The notes under the pieces were generated by a model. It searched no databases, was not told the DNA's origin, and saw only the letters and a list, made by a program, of their open reading frames with translations. A DNA stretch of 64,000 bases from Demequina sp. NBRC 110051. Lineage in GTDB: Bacteria > Actinomycetota > Actinomycetes > Actinomycetales > Demequinaceae. The translations under genes and the position numbers were made by a program. The stretch spans positions 124,001-188,000 of the forward strand of contig NZ_BBRH01000008.1 of assembly GCF_002090055.1 (NCBI RefSeq), given 5' to 3'. Of this stretch, positions 1,872 to 61,028 are shown in pieces. The stretch's first letter is position 1. Each line of letters starts with the position of its first letter.

Positions 1872-1912
1872 AGCCGGCCACCGCATCGGCCGGTCGCAAG
1901 GCCCGGACACGA

Positions 1913-1918
1913 TAGGTT
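1913..1918 (+). promoter_or_regulatory. -10 element, probable leaderless promoter of dapA
   Basis: TAGGTT ends 7 bases before the dapA ATG (1926) and no Shine-Dalgarno sequence precedes that ATG, so the transcript probably begins at or next to the start codon. Confidence 0.5.
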
Positions 1919-1925
1919 TGGCCCC

Positions 1926-2819
1926 ATGACCTCCTCGCGCCCCTTCGGGACGGTGCTCACCGCCATGGTGACGCCGATGCATGACGACGGCTCCCTCGAC
2001 ATTGACGGGGCCGTCACGCTCGCGAAGCACCTGCTGGACCACGGCTCCGATGGGCTCGTGATTTCCGGCACGACGGGCGAGGCGCCGACCACCCACGCGC
2101 CGGAGAAGGCGGAACTCACCGCCGCGTTGGTCGAGGCCGTCGGTGACCGCGCGACCCTCATCGCGGGTGCAGGGTCCAACGACACCGCGCACGCCGTCAT
2201 GATGGCCGAGCAGGCCGCCGAGGCGGGCGTCGACGGCGTCCTCGCGCTGGTGCCGTACTACTCGAAGCCCTCCCAGAAGGGCATCGTCGCGCACCTGTCG
2301 GCGATCGCGGGCGCCACCGACCTGCCGGTCATGCTCTACGACATCCCCGGTCGCACGGGCGTCGCGCTCACGGACGAGTCCTTCGACTCTCTCGCTGAGA
2401 TCGACACCATCGTTGCCAACAAGGATGCGACGGGCAATGTCGCGGCCGCCAAGGATCGCATCGCGCGCACCGGCCTTGCCTGGTATTCGGGCGACGACCC
2501 GCTCACCCTTGAGTTTCTGCGCGCCGGCGCCGTGGGAGTGGTCTCCGTGTCCGCCCACGTTGCAGGTCAGCGCATCGCGGCGATGATCGCCGCACATGAC
2601 GCCGGCGACACCGCCGGCGCCGACCGTCTGCACGAGGAACTGCTTCCCGTGCACGACGCCATCTTCACCGGCCCCGGGGCCGCGAACGCCAAGGCAGCCA
2701 TGGAGCTGCTGGGCGTCATCCCGGGGCGCCACATGCGTCTGCCGCTGCTGCCGCTCGACGACGACGAGTACGCCTCGCTCGCCTCGGCGCTACGCGCGGG
2801 AGGCGTCACCATCCCCTAG
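1926..2819 (+). CDS. dapA: 4-hydroxy-tetrahydrodipicolinate synthase
   Basis: First committed step of the diaminopimelate/lysine branch: condenses pyruvate with aspartate semialdehyde through a Schiff base. In the 297-residue product the lysine forming the Schiff base is K166 (VANKDATGN) and the catalytic Tyr is Y138 (MLYDIPGRTG). The GTTGE motif appears as SGTTGEAPT. The usual GIKEATGN around the lysine reads ANKDATGN, an ordinary variation. Followed 7 bases later by rnj, an order common in actinobacteria. The start lacks a ribosome site and fits a leaderless mRNA. Confidence 0.96.
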   Translation: MTSSRPFGTVLTAMVTPMHDDGSLDIDGAVTLAKHLLDHGSDGLVISGTTGEAPTTHAPEKAELTAALVEAVGDRATLIAGAGSNDTAHAVMMAEQAAEAGVDGVLALVPYYSKPSQKGIVAHLSAIAGATDLPVMLYDIPGRTGVALTDESFDSLAEIDTIVANKDATGNVAAAKDRIARTGLAWYSGDDPLTLEFLRAGAVGVVSVSAHVAGQRIAAMIAAHDAGDTAGADRLHEELLPVHDAIFTGPGAANAKAAMELLGVIPGRHMRLPLLPLDDDEYASLASALRAGGVTIP

Positions 2820-2826
2820 GAGAGAC

Positions 2827-4509
2827 GTGACCTTCCACCCCGAACTGTCCGCCCCGCCGGCGCTTGAGCCCGGCACCCTGCGCATCGTCCCGCTCGGCGG
2901 GCTCGGCGAGGTGGGCCGGAACATGACGGTCTTCGAGATCGACGGCCGCCTGCTGATCGTCGACTGCGGCGTGCTGTTCCCCGAGGACCACCAGCCCGGC
3001 GTCGACCTGATCCTGCCGGACTTCGCGTATATCGAGGACCGCGTCGACGACATCGAGGCGATCGTGCTCACGCACGGCCACGAGGACCACATCGGCGCCG
3101 TGCCCTACCTGTTGCGCCTGCGCCAGGACATCCCCATCATCGGCTCGCAGCTCACCCTCGCGTTCATCGAGGCCAAGCTCCAGGAGCACCGCATCAAGCC
3201 CGTGACCCTCGCGGTCAAGGAGGGCGGCAGCGAGCAGCTCGGTAAGTTCGGCCTCGAGTTCGTCGCGGTGAACCACTCCATCCCCGACGCGCTTGCGGTG
3301 TTCATCACTACGACGGCCGGCACCGTGCTCGGCACGGGCGACTTCAAGATGGACCAACTGCCCCTCGATGGCCGCATCACGGACCTGCGTGCCTTCGCCA
3401 AGCTGGGCGAGCGCGGCGTGGACCTGTTCATGACGGACTCCACCAACGCGGAGTCGCCCGGCTTTACCGCCTCCGAGGTGGAGATCACCCCGGTGCTCGA
3501 CCAGACCTTCGCGAACGCCACCGGCCGCATTGTGGTCGCGAGCTTCTCGAGCCACGTGCACCGCGTGCAGCAGGTCATCAACGCCGCGCACGCGCACGGC
3601 CGTCGCGTGGCCTTCGTGGGCCGCTCGATGGTGCGCAACATGAACATCGCCGCGGACATGGGCTACCTCAAGGTGCCCGCCAACATCCTCATCGACGCCA
3701 AGAAGGCCGACGACATGCCGGCCGACAAGGTCGTCTACATGTGCACCGGCTCCCAGGGCGAGCCGATGGCCGCGCTCAGCCGCATCGCGAGCCTGGACCA
3801 CAAGCTGCGCGTGGGTCCCGGCGACCTCGTGGTGCTGGCGTCGTCGCTCATCCCCGGCAACGAGAACGCGGTGTTCCGCGTGATCAACGGCCTCATGCGC
3901 CTGGGTGCCACCGTGGTGCACCAGGGCAGCGCGCGTGTGCACGTCTCGGGTCACGCCAGTGCCGGCGAGCTCCTGTACTGCTACAACATCGTGCGTCCCA
4001 AGAACGTCATGCCCATCCACGGTGAGGTCCGTCACCTGCTCGCCAACGGCAAGCTCGCGATCAAGACAGGTGTGCCGGAGAAGAACGTCATGTTCGCCGA
4101 GAACGGCGTGGCGGTGGACCTCAAGGACGGCGTCGCGAAGATCGTCGGTGCCGTCGAGGTGCACAACGTGTACGTGGACGGCTCCTCGGTGGGTGAGATC
4201 ACCGACACCGAGCTCAAGGACCGGCGCATCCTGTCGGAAGAGGGCTTCGTGTCCGTGTTCGCCGTGGTCGACTCGACCAACGGCAAGGTGGTCTCCGGCC
4301 CCGAGGTGCACGCCCGTGGCCTCGCCGAGGACGACTCGGTCTTCGACGCGATCCTGCCCAAGATCAAGAACGCGCTCGAGGAGGCCGCCGCGAGCGGCAA
4401 GGCCGACAACCACCAGTTGCAGCAGGTCATGCGCCGCGTCCTTGGCCGCTACGTGGGCACCAAGCTGCGCAGGCGCCCCATGATCATCCCGATCGTCATC
4501 GAGTCGTAG
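2827..4509 (+). CDS. rnj: ribonuclease J
   Basis: Endo- and 5'-to-3' exoribonuclease of the metallo-beta-lactamase/beta-CASP family, acting in mRNA decay and rRNA 5'-end maturation. The 560 residues match the family length. The zinc motif HGHEDH is at 83-88 (LTHGHEDHIGA), followed by TGDFKMD and the beta-CASP domain (SFSSHVHRVQQ, SSLIPGNE, HVSGHA). The GTG at 2827 follows AGGAGAG at 2818-2824 and gives the standard N-terminus. The frame is also open upstream inside dapA, but that extension has no family similarity that I recognise. RNase Y is encoded about 10 kb downstream, so both decay nucleases are present. Confidence 0.96.
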   Translation: MTFHPELSAPPALEPGTLRIVPLGGLGEVGRNMTVFEIDGRLLIVDCGVLFPEDHQPGVDLILPDFAYIEDRVDDIEAIVLTHGHEDHIGAVPYLLRLRQDIPIIGSQLTLAFIEAKLQEHRIKPVTLAVKEGGSEQLGKFGLEFVAVNHSIPDALAVFITTTAGTVLGTGDFKMDQLPLDGRITDLRAFAKLGERGVDLFMTDSTNAESPGFTASEVEITPVLDQTFANATGRIVVASFSSHVHRVQQVINAAHAHGRRVAFVGRSMVRNMNIAADMGYLKVPANILIDAKKADDMPADKVVYMCTGSQGEPMAALSRIASLDHKLRVGPGDLVVLASSLIPGNENAVFRVINGLMRLGATVVHQGSARVHVSGHASAGELLYCYNIVRPKNVMPIHGEVRHLLANGKLAIKTGVPEKNVMFAENGVAVDLKDGVAKIVGAVEVHNVYVDGSSVGEITDTELKDRRILSEEGFVSVFAVVDSTNGKVVSGPEVHARGLAEDDSVFDAILPKIKNALEEAAASGKADNHQLQQVMRRVLGRYVGTKLRRRPMIIPIVIES

Positions 4510-58424: not shown

Positions 58425-59044
58425 CCTGGCGACCAGCCTTCTGGCTGGTCGCAGCCGCCGTCGTTGCCGTTGACCAGGCCACGAAGATCTGGTCGCTGAA
58501 CACCCTGGTGCCGTATGAGAAGCACGAGGTCCTGGGCGAATGGCTCCAGATCCAGTTGGTGTTCAACTCAGGAGCGGCGTTCTCCTTGGGCGCCGACTTC
58601 ACCTGGGTGGTGACGCTCATCATGCTCGCGATCACCGTGGGCATCATCTGGTACGCGAGGCGGGCGCAGTCGCGCCTGGCGACCTGGCTGTTTGGCCTGG
58701 GTCTCGGCGGCGCCGTGGGCAACCTGATTGATCGGCTGTTCCGTGAGCCGGGCTTCATGCGCGGCCACGTGGTCGACATGATCAACTACAACAACTGGTT
58801 CGTGGGCAACGTCGCGGACATCGCGATCGTCGGCGTGGCCGTGGCGATGCTCCTCGTGACGCTCGCGGGACGCCCCGTGCTCGCGCCGGTCGGTAGTGAC
58901 GGTCAGAGTGACGGCACGGACGCCGTCGAAGGCGCGGGCGACCCCGACAGTGGCGACGCGGATGACACGCCAGCCACGGCATCGGCCGCTCCTACGGACG
59001 CCCCGTCGCCCACGACCCCCGAGCCGGGGACCCCGCGTGGCTGA
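58421..59044 (+). CDS. lspA: lipoprotein signal peptidase
   Basis: Removes signal peptides from prolipoproteins. 207 residues: four membrane helices, [18 protein letters not shown], catalytic aspartates in [22 protein letters not shown] and NVADIAI. The start is a TTG forming a TTGA overlap with the preceding stop, with AGGAG at 58411-58415. After the last helix there is a tail of about 50 acidic/Pro/Thr/Ala residues not part of LspA, which contains the repeated 15-mer (PATASAAP). Confidence 0.93.
58973..58987 (+). repeat. copy 11 of the repeated element
   Basis: Exact 15-mer in the non-catalytic lspA tail, TASA frame; with its flank it reads GCCAGCCACGGCATCGGCC (58969-58987). Confidence 0.9.
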
Positions 59045-59954
59045 CACGCGTTACCTGCCCGTTCCCGACGCGCTCGTGGGGGACCGAGCCGACGCGGCGC
59101 TGTCGCGCATGCTGGGCCTATCGCGCACGAAGGCGGCCGATGTGCTCGCCGCGGGCGGCGTGATGCAGGACGGGCGCACGCTCGCGAAGTCCGACCGCGT
59201 CGGTGACGGCATGCTGATTGTTGACCTGCCCGACGAGCGCTCCGCGGCCCCCGAGCCGGAGGTCCCCGGCGGCCTCACGCTCGTTTATGAGGACGACGAC
59301 CTTGCGGTGGTCGACAAGCCCGTGGGCGTCGCCGCGCACCCCTCGCCGGGCTGGACGGGTCCCACGGTCGTGGGCGCGCTCGCCTCGGCAGGCGTCACGC
59401 TCGCGTCGTCAGGGGCGGCCGAGCGTCAGGGCATCGTGCACCGGCTCGACGTCGGCACGTCCGGCCTGATGGTCGTCGCGAAGTCGGACATCGCCTACTC
59501 GCACCTGAAGCGCGCCTTCAAGGAGCGCACGGTGGAGAAGATCTATCACGCCGTCGCGCAGGGCCACCTCGACCCCACGGCCGGCACCATCGACGCGCCG
59601 ATCGGCCGTCATCCCAGCTCGGACTGGAAGTTCGCCGTGACGCAGGACGGCCGCCCGTCCATCACGCACTACGAGGTGCTCGAGATGTTCCCCGCGGCCT
59701 CGCTGCTGGAGATCCACCTCGAGACCGGCCGCACCCACCAGATCCGTGTGCACATGGCCGCCATGCGTCACCCGCTCGCCGGCGACCTCACGTATGGCGC
59801 GGACCCCACGCTGGCCACGCGCCTGGGGCTCACCCGCCAGTGGCTCCACGCCCACGAGCTCGCCTTCGCGCACCCCACTCGCGAGGGCGAGGTGCGCGTG
59901 CGCTCCGAGTACCCCGCGGACCTCGCGGCGGCGCTGGAGAAGCTCCGCGGCTAG
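59037..59954 (+). CDS. rluD: 23S rRNA pseudouridine synthase, RluD family
   Basis: 305 residues: N-terminal S4 RNA-binding domain ([25 protein letters not shown]), then the RluA-type catalytic domain with the catalytic Asp in [15 protein letters not shown] and later [11 protein letters not shown]. Expected target is helix 69 of 23S rRNA, by homology. GTG 59037 lies inside the lspA end (8-base overlap). Confidence 0.93.
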
Positions 59955-59968
59955 ACCCCCCCGGCGTC

Positions 59969-60066
59969 GGTTTGGCCCACGGTGGTGAGCAGTGTGGCTG
60001 ATGAGACGCGTGCGCGCGTCACATCAGCCACGTGAGTATGCATGAGCCCCACATGTGGGCCAAACC
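59969..60066. repeat. 98-bp nested inverted repeat
   Basis: Outer arms GGTTTGGCCCAC (59969-59980) and GTGGGCCAAACC (60055-60066) are perfect 12-bp complements. Inside them a second pair, 59994-60010 and 60015-60031, are 17-base arms (GTGGCTGATGAGACGCG) with one mismatch and a 4-base loop (TGCG). It fills most of the gap between convergent rluD and the hydrolase gene. It may be a two-way terminator, a structured RNA or a short non-autonomous element; no U-tract or terminal duplication is evident. Confidence 0.85.
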
Positions 60067-60074
60067 AATCGGAA

Positions 60075-61028
60075 TCAGGGGAGGGCCGCGAGGAAATCCA
60101 GCATCGCCTCGCTGATCTGGGTGCGGGCCTCGTCGTCGTCGAGCGTCGGCGTGCCGTCGCCGGGCTGGACCCCGTAGTCGCCGAACGACGCGTGACTCGC
60201 GCCATCGATGACGGTGAAGGTGGCGTCGGTGGGAAGGTCCGCTCGGGACGCTTCGATCTTGGCGGGAGTCGACAGGCCGTCCTCGGAGGCGGAGATCGAC
60301 AGCACGGGCACGGTGAGCGACTCAGAGATGTCGCCGGCGGGGTAGGAGCCCAGGAGCATCAGCCCGGCGGCGTCCTCGTCGTCGCGGTCGTCGGCCTGCA
60401 TGGCCGCCACCGTGCCACCCAGCGAGTGCCCGGCCACCACCCACTCCGTGGCATACGGCTCGCGCAGGGGATCGGGCCAGCGCGATAGCGCCGTGAACGC
60501 GATGCCGAGGGGCTGCTTGATGATGATGACCGGATACCCGGCCTCGGCGAGCGGCAGGAGTTCGGCGACATACGCGCGGGCGTCCACACGGGCGCCGGGC
60601 TGGAACAGCACTCCCACCGCGGTGCTGTCGTTGCCCGATGGCTCGATGAGGATCTGGCTGGGGGACTCGGTGACGATCGCCTCGGCAGAACCGTCCATCG
60701 CGCTGAGTGAAGGCTCGGTGGCGCCGAACGGCGTGAGCCACACCAGGAACGCCACCCATGCCGCCGCGAGGACGTGGCCCGCGAACCGCACGGCTACCCG
60801 CCAACCCCTGCTGCGGGGCGGGCGGCGCCACGACCGCCACAGGGCGACGGTGCCGAGCACCGCCGTGCCGAGGAGCAGGACGGCGTAGGCGGGAGAGCCG
60901 TGGGTGACCGGCGACCACGCCGTGAGGAAGACCCACGCGGGAGCGAGGACCGCGGCCACGGCGACGAGGCGACCGGTCCAGATGGCCCACGTGGCCCCGG
61001 TGGCGGGGGTGGTGTCGCTGCCTGTCAT
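60075..61028 (-). CDS. membrane-anchored alpha/beta hydrolase
   Basis: 317 residues: three predicted N-terminal membrane helices (about 12-95), then an alpha/beta-hydrolase domain with the nucleophile elbow GHSLGG (VVAGHSLGGTVAAM), a late Asp (SASEDGLST) and His (GASHASFGDYG). Resembles the dienelactone-hydrolase-like PF12695 type; substrate unknown. Its ATG overlaps the hrpA stop (ATGA), so it is co-translated with the helicase. Confidence 0.83.
   Translation of the reverse strand: MTGSDTTPATGATWAIWTGRLVAVAAVLAPAWVFLTAWSPVTHGSPAYAVLLLGTAVLGTVALWRSWRRPPRSRGWRVAVRFAGHVLAAAWVAFLVWLTPFGATEPSLSAMDGSAEAIVTESPSQILIEPSGNDSTAVGVLFQPGARVDARAYVAELLPLAEAGYPVIIIKQPLGIAFTALSRWPDPLREPYATEWVVAGHSLGGTVAAMQADDRDDEDAAGLMLLGSYPAGDISESLTVPVLSISASEDGLSTPAKIEASRADLPTDATFTVIDGASHASFGDYGVQPGDGTPTLDDDEARTQISEAMLDFLAALP

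Follow-up and report, generated by a model that had tools for sequence, protein, structure and literature searches.

The inverted repeat between an rluD-like gene and a hydrolase gene of Demequina sp. NBRC 110051 is, we consider virtually certain, one copy of a dispersed family of palindromic elements. Members of this family also stand in pairs around genes for a predicted two-domain protein, here called AbiEi-nuclease, and we are confident that the family is tied to these genes. The reading we favour, at slightly better than even odds, is that the elements are REPIN/RAYT-like non-autonomous repeats, spread or converted by AbiEi-nuclease and settled mostly at gene 3′ ends. The window, the whole 64,000-nucleotide stretch of DNA analysed, covers positions 124001-188000 of contig C8 in a 2.75-Mb genome of 25 contigs (G000); the end types and the partner gene become visible only beyond it.

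The copy in the window is a complete, palindromic element of 100 bp (type A; 59968-60067). Its left terminal repeat, CGGTTTGGCCCAC (59968-59980, forward strand), is near-invariant among copies, and its right terminal repeat (60055-60067, reverse strand) is inverted, with the outermost base off the family consensus. A preliminary description had reported a 98-bp inverted repeat with perfect 12-bp outer arms and 17-bp inner arms around a 4-nt loop; this structure is present, with the outer arms exactly as claimed (59969-59980 and 60055-60066) and the inner arms (59994-60010 and 60015-60031) 94% complementary, and only the extent needs revision, the family unit being 100 bp. The left array of 9-bp units (59984-60007, forward strand), placed by column counts in alignment A1 at family columns 17, 26 and 35, reads GGTGAG, TGTGGC and TGAGAC against the consensus TGTGAC, and the right array holds GTCACA, an inverted TGTGAC unit (60018-60023, reverse strand). 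The inner hairpin (59994-60031) is no general family feature. A covariance model, R1, built from 16 type-A copies, matches 59962-60073 with 88.2 bits, the sole match in the window with E <0.1.

The neighbours are convergent, as had been described. Upstream lies an RluD-like RNA pseudouridylate synthase gene (PF00849, E 2e-31; forward strand), with a listed open frame of 58896-59954 and a true start probably near 59038; facing it is an alpha/beta hydrolase gene (60075-61028, reverse strand; PF12695, E 8e-39). The element starts 13 bp past the stop of the synthase gene, which ends at 59954, and ends 7 bp short of the hydrolase stop codon (60075-60077). Folded as RNA it reaches -61 kcal/mol, compared with -36.2 kcal/mol (sd 3.48) for shuffled sequence (z -7.13), and none of 200 shuffles folds as well. 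The reported lack of a U-tract was borne out, with no terminator-like site in 59700-60300.

Searching the genome with the element returned 52 matches on many contigs. Twenty of these places were fetched, and 16 hold full type-A copies of 98-100 bp with ends CGGTTTGGCCCAC...GTGGGCCAAACCG; L016, L021 and L027 are not copies, and the copy at L022 is degenerate, only one of its ends being good. The preliminary description had offered a MITE- or REP-like element with GGTTTGGCCCAC ends as one option, which was right in outline, these ends being common to all 16 full copies, and the element is far from single-copy. With at most one mismatch the 11-bp end occurs 63 times in the window genome, against 24 for a reversed control pattern. 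The exact 11-bp end matches 27 times there, only twice outside full copies (once at a degenerate copy on contig C7 and once without a surrounding element), and a transposase search covering Y1 found none at either place. Among the 13 copies that measure exactly 100 bp the ends are near-invariant, whereas similarity over the central 56 positions averages 40%. This central part consists of 9-bp units that mirror each other across the midpoint, TGTGACnnn in the left half (columns 17, 26 and 35) and nnnGTCACA in the right (columns 84, 75 and 66). TGTGAC/GTCACA was observed 31 times, compared with 4.0 expected. No target duplication is evident at copy borders or at aligned absent sites, which are not clean, and no clean insertion junction was seen at the latter. 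The degenerate copy on C7 (L061 7917-8102, about 129.9-130.1 kb; 45.5 bits, one perfect end) adjoins a DnaA-box-like cluster in which TTATCCACA is joined within 50 bp by two near matches; a rhomboid gene lies alongside, and a sortase gene is nearby. Elsewhere, a tRNA-Leu (taa) gene (L012 2130-2204) begins 31 bp past a type-A copy.

A small structured RNA, also suggested earlier, is disfavoured, since the arms carry no two-sided changes and Rfam gave nothing near its thresholds. Of the 208 cells in the 13 arm pairs, 8 are broken, 4 are changed on one side and none on both; one pair further in, the purine varies independently of the pyrimidine (GC 5, AC 4, AU 4, GU 3). RNAalifold predicted 20 pairs with a covariation term of +0.4, and none of the three pairs with two-sided change is among the 13 arm pairs. 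The best Rfam match, naRNA4, scored 22.3 bits against a gathering threshold of 59.5 (E 0.37 and 0.69). Interior folding compared with shuffles is modest in most copies (mean z -2.1), and the strong inner hairpin is confined to a few, with the strongest interior folds in L018 (z -13.0), L013 (-3.8) and the window copy (-3.2). Because the arm changes are uncompensated, the constraint seems to lie on DNA sequence rather than on RNA pairing; the pattern resembles conserved DNA half-sites more than a conserved RNA stem.

The partner gene emerged from a second end type, type B, whose end is TACCGCTCAACACAC. In G000 a pair of type-B elements 1 kb apart encloses a gene (C6:184517-185386) that encodes about 280 residues; a type-B pair in G015 encloses a homologue of similar size, and a third such homologue, in G004, ends beside an element. 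Among the best 30 homologue loci, R1 places elements on both sides of all six closest homologues (L120-L125), the downstream element of L125 overlapping the gene end by 27 bases; L149 also has elements on both sides and L126 on one. In a flank test that kept 28 of the 30 Demequina homologues, leaving out L137 (at a contig end) and L142 (short flank), the 270-bp flank pairs beat all 60 of their own shuffles in 24 of 28, and 21 of 28 scored at least 22, compared with 1 of 48 control intervals. A control pairing the upstream flank of gene i with the downstream flank of gene j was set aside, since many of the genes have locus and neighbours in common. Beyond Demequina, 43 of the 75 genomes taken from the rest of the family and order contain AbiEi-nuclease homologues, and at the best 30 of these loci, which were compared with their own shuffles only, 17 pass and 14 score at least 22, the best pair outside the genus scoring 118 over 124 bp. 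The ten strongest outside loci include non-palindromes: L221 and L226 are plain direct or inverted repeats, and the flanks of L233 look like tandem repeats. Bracketing by paired repeats is general for the AbiEi-nuclease gene family. Two of the three paralogues in the window genome, on C16 (L167 ~1900-3000) and C15 (L168), have no element by R1; each has paired repeats of its own in the flanks, different in kind and scoring 42 and 28.

The repeats carry a two-tier code of core motif and end type, both of which agree with the protein tree. A second core motif, CGACACGCCG (motif II; at most one mismatch), lies in both flanks of 17 of 29 genes and in 58 of 624 single control windows. As a label on the protein tree it requires one change, against 9.4 when shuffled (0 of 500 shuffles as low), in a count that sets motif II against the other 12 genes across a split with support of only 74/67. 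A strict motif-based "class I" label was rejected as too strict, applying to only 4 of the 29 genes. The genes of G000, G039 and G015, a single clade on the protein tree, have type-B ends in their flanks; A-like ends flank those of G010 and G043, in another clade, and G004 has ends of its own. Within a genome, flanking ends are the same as dispersed ends in G000 and G015 (type B), G043, G010 and G004.

The type-A pattern is narrowly distributed and the wider family is not. Of 119 genomes, three carry the exact paired ends, and these belong to a single genus, the named records being Demequina sp. NBRC 110055 and D. litorisediminis NBRC 112299; a wider contig search with this pattern gave 16 loci, 8 of them in Demequina. 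R1 has matches in 27 of 44 Demequina genomes (E≤0.01). The inspected members outside type A have similar length and keep TGTGAC-like units with other ends, including, besides type B, TCGGTTTGGCACAC, TCGGTTTGACACA, GTGCAGTTCTGCACGC, TACCGGTTCTGCACAC and GATTCCCAATGACA. The window genome carries both type A and type B; type-B copies also occur in G033, G029 (a fragmented assembly), G031 and G016, for which the listed homologues include no close relative of the type-B proteins. A strict form of the class-II ends was found in 1 of 13 genomes, at two sites, so class-II dispersal rests on these and on the L024 and L013 sites described below.

One locus has changed type. The sole type-A gene seen is broken and lies between two decayed type-A elements in G041 (D. 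litorisediminis); ranked by summed tblastn score, the pair of genes bearing A-like ends comes closest to it (244 and 237 bits, with 217 for the runner-up). It sits where G000 and G039 have a type-B cassette, the neighbouring DNA aligning at 78-88%, so the locus has switched type. The cassette locus (L099 2001-3201, L153 2388-3555) stands beside a large open frame, presumably ftsH. We found no type-A gene in the window genome and, as the relative's gene is broken, the type-A solos, the window copy included, are probably orphaned; the window copy may now act only as a 3′-end barrier between convergent genes. Copies cluster near the gene in G000, where 8 of 16 type-A copies lie on contig C6 (P 0.0004), and in G039 (P 0.011) but not in G041 (P 0.33); these tests are not independent, as copies are partly orthologous.

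The bracketed protein is predicted to join an AbiEi-antitoxin-like fold to a Vsr/EDxHD-like nuclease (MTES_1575/DUF559). Among 29 aligned homologues, Pfam (E≤0.01) finds MTES_1575 in 29, AbiEi_4 in 25 and DUF559 in 23; the window-genome protein scores below the curated cut-offs (AbiEi_4 16.6 bits, cut-off 25), PADLOC gives weak AbiEi matches, and NCBIfam has no match for the three proteins searched. In a structure model with pLDDT 92, residues 1-176 resemble the AbiEi antitoxin 6y8q_A (Z 10.2, rmsd 3.9, 169 aligned). Residues 180-279 of the model resemble NGO0050 (3hrl; Z 8.8, rmsd 2.9, 79 aligned) and residues 181-279 the homing endonuclease I-Bth0305I (3r3p_B; Z 8.4, rmsd 4.6, 87 aligned), with a weaker match of the modelled nuclease domain to Vsr (1cw0; Z 5.4, rmsd 5.4, 99 aligned); these come from a Foldseek list re-ranked by VIA-align, the ranking being confined to that list. 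E184, D211, D223, H228 and D237 are invariant across the 29 homologues, and we read them as fitting the EDxHD pattern. Among the open-licence papers listed, no title or abstract links DUF559 genes with flanking palindromes.

Solo copies turn over between species. Many are orthologous between G000, G039 and G041, and in 18 orthologous element pairs mean identity is 0.91 for ends, 0.69 for interiors and 0.77 for the nearest 35-bp flanks. Over 28 ortholog pairs in proper orientation, interior identity runs from 0.38 to 0.95 (8 pairs at 0.70 or above, 14 at 0.55 or below; the mean over all comparisons is 0.48), a continuum and not two clean classes. The interiors of L010/L182 and L012/L180 are at background level (0.50 and 0.52) despite flanks of 0.89 and 0.90, which suggests replacement in place; fast mutation may be an alternative source of interior divergence. 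Inversion of the interior between the arms fails as an explanation, the two orientations giving 0.50 and 0.43 for L010/L182 and 0.52 and 0.41 for L012/L180. The ends have changed species-wide: in G041, 16 of 20 arms have C as their second end base, whereas G stands there in 30 of 32 arms of G000 and in 30 of 32 of G039. G041 has just two G arms, both in L195, an element with a conserved interior (0.88 and 0.95). Elements also differ in presence. At the L024 site the type-A element is absent from G039 and G015, and G041 has a class-II-like element; at the L013 site G015 has a class-II-like element, and G039 and G041 are unaligned on one side (three genomes aligned of eight searched at each site). 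Directly beside the type-A copy of L024 (~2120-2230) stands a degenerate type-B element, which G039 and G015 also have without the adjoining type-A.

Placement favours gene 3′ ends. By a crude gene caller that misses some genes, solos lie between convergent genes in 10 of 18 cases in G000, 9 of 16 in G039 and 5 of 10 in G041, compared with 3 of the 23 remaining gaps that are 100 bp or longer; of the 18 G000 solos, 14 are within 60 bp of a gene 3′ end, and none of the 16 full copies is inside a called gene. This fits tolerance of elements at 3′ ends, terminator-like use, or both.

We suggest that AbiEi-nuclease would recognise the terminal repeat and TGTGAC units as duplex half-sites and would cut or nick DNA at the elements; repair from another copy would then spread copies and overwrite resident ones, a homing-like conversion under which end sequences would drift together within a species. 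Binding, cleavage and copying by the protein are what we infer. Against this proposal, type-A ends are conserved though no intact type-A gene was found, and type-B copies occur in four genomes whose listed homologues include none close to the type-B proteins; a role maintained by selection would explain both equally well. Also counting against it are the lack of any target duplication or clean insertion junction, the continuum of interior identities, the failure of copies to cluster near the gene in G041, the non-palindromic flank pairs outside Demequina, and the two paralogues in the window genome without an element by R1.

The alternative that survives best, though we think it unlikely, makes the elements the binding sites of an AbiEi-like autoregulator that happens to carry a nuclease domain as well, the flanking pair controlling its own gene and the dispersed copies being regulatory or chromosome-organising, selected and immobile. 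The Streptococcus suis AbiEi is reported to bind a pair of palindromes within its promoter (PMC11062541). The better conservation of ends than of 35-bp flanks in the 18 orthologous pairs and the persistence of ends where no cognate gene was found also agree with such an operator. Against an operator speak the elements downstream of the gene, the solos at 3′ ends instead of promoters, the sites that differ between species, and the ends that changed together in one species.

We give still less weight to a reading in which the elements are bidirectional terminators of convergent genes, multiplied by recombination, and the nuclease gene merely has such terminators on both sides. The excess between convergent genes in all three genomes and the strong RNA fold of the window copy speak for it. 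But no T-tract follows the hairpin, the arm changes are uncompensated, the core motif tracks the protein clade, and a terminator has no need of fixed length, conserved ends or 9-bp arrays. A terminator role for individual copies in place is another matter: as copies are mostly at gene 3′ ends it may well hold for some, and a 3′-end role for the window copy, which would be compatible with nuclease-driven spread, seems to us a reasonable conjecture, though one we would sooner doubt than assert. Least probable are plain MITEs of a lost or unseen insertion sequence with the nuclease gene as passenger, which terminal inverted repeats, fixed size and intergenic dispersal would suit, but which is at odds with the general bracketing of the nuclease gene family, with 25 of 27 exact 11-bp ends in G000 lying within full copies, and with the absence of a Y1 transposase from nine genomes.

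To our knowledge, REP-type repeats have so far been tied to one enzyme class, the RAYTs. If spread by AbiEi-nuclease is correct, an unrelated enzyme shares the gene-between-repeats plan, which would then have more than one origin, and there would be a first handle on a family of proteins without known function. More tentatively, and with rather less than even confidence, AbiEi-MTES_1575/DUF559 proteins, which are widespread in this actinomycete order, could form a new repeat-propagating class, with paired repeats, a two-part code and homing-like copying and without an HUH or DDE transposase; the code would then combine a clade-level core motif with a fast-switching end sequence. Target recognition is open to direct testing, since the putative target of each gene lies in the gene's own flanks and one locus has switched between types.

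Several known systems share parts of this arrangement. A MITE of a DDE insertion sequence likewise has terminal inverted repeats. The AbiEi antitoxins of type IV (AbiE) toxin-antitoxin systems have a fold of a winged helix and a second domain, which the prediction for residues 1-176 resembles, and bind palindromes; here a nuclease domain follows in the same chain. The EDxHD/Vsr-type I-Bth0305I, a homing endonuclease of the kind whose site-specific cuts drive copying of the enzyme's own gene, is similar in the modelled fold of that domain, whereas the Demequina protein is encoded by a free-standing bacterial gene, with an AbiEi-like head and repeats on either side. CGTC-type REPs are also palindromic extragenic repeats, reported to be without a dedicated transposase (PMC3733652), and an AbiEi-nuclease system would bear on them; they have 8-9 bp stems and an unpaired CGTC tag, whereas in Demequina elements CGTC is only one part of the end-proximal majority sequence and has its match on the opposite side.

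The closest parallel is with REPIN/RAYT systems (REPtrons) and TIRtrons, in the latter of which RAYT-like genes lie between long inverted repeats (PMC3116915; PMC3733652). Like REPINs, the Demequina elements are short extragenic palindromes, dispersed, of several types per genome and with a preference for sites downstream of genes; as in REPIN/RAYT and TIRtrons, the enzyme gene is flanked by repeats, here in 6 of 6 closest homologues. The enzymes differ, an AbiEi-MTES_1575/DUF559 nuclease here and a Y1 HUH transposase in RAYTs, and the Demequina repeats carry 9-bp arrays and type-specific ends. Y1_Tnp (PF01797) was found in 0 of 9 Demequina genomes searched and in 5 of 14 control genomes, and the GTAG tetranucleotide tag of REPIN/RAYT is absent from the element majority sequence and its 6-bp borders. 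On this evidence, the Demequina system resembles REPIN/RAYT in how it works and is not a member of it.
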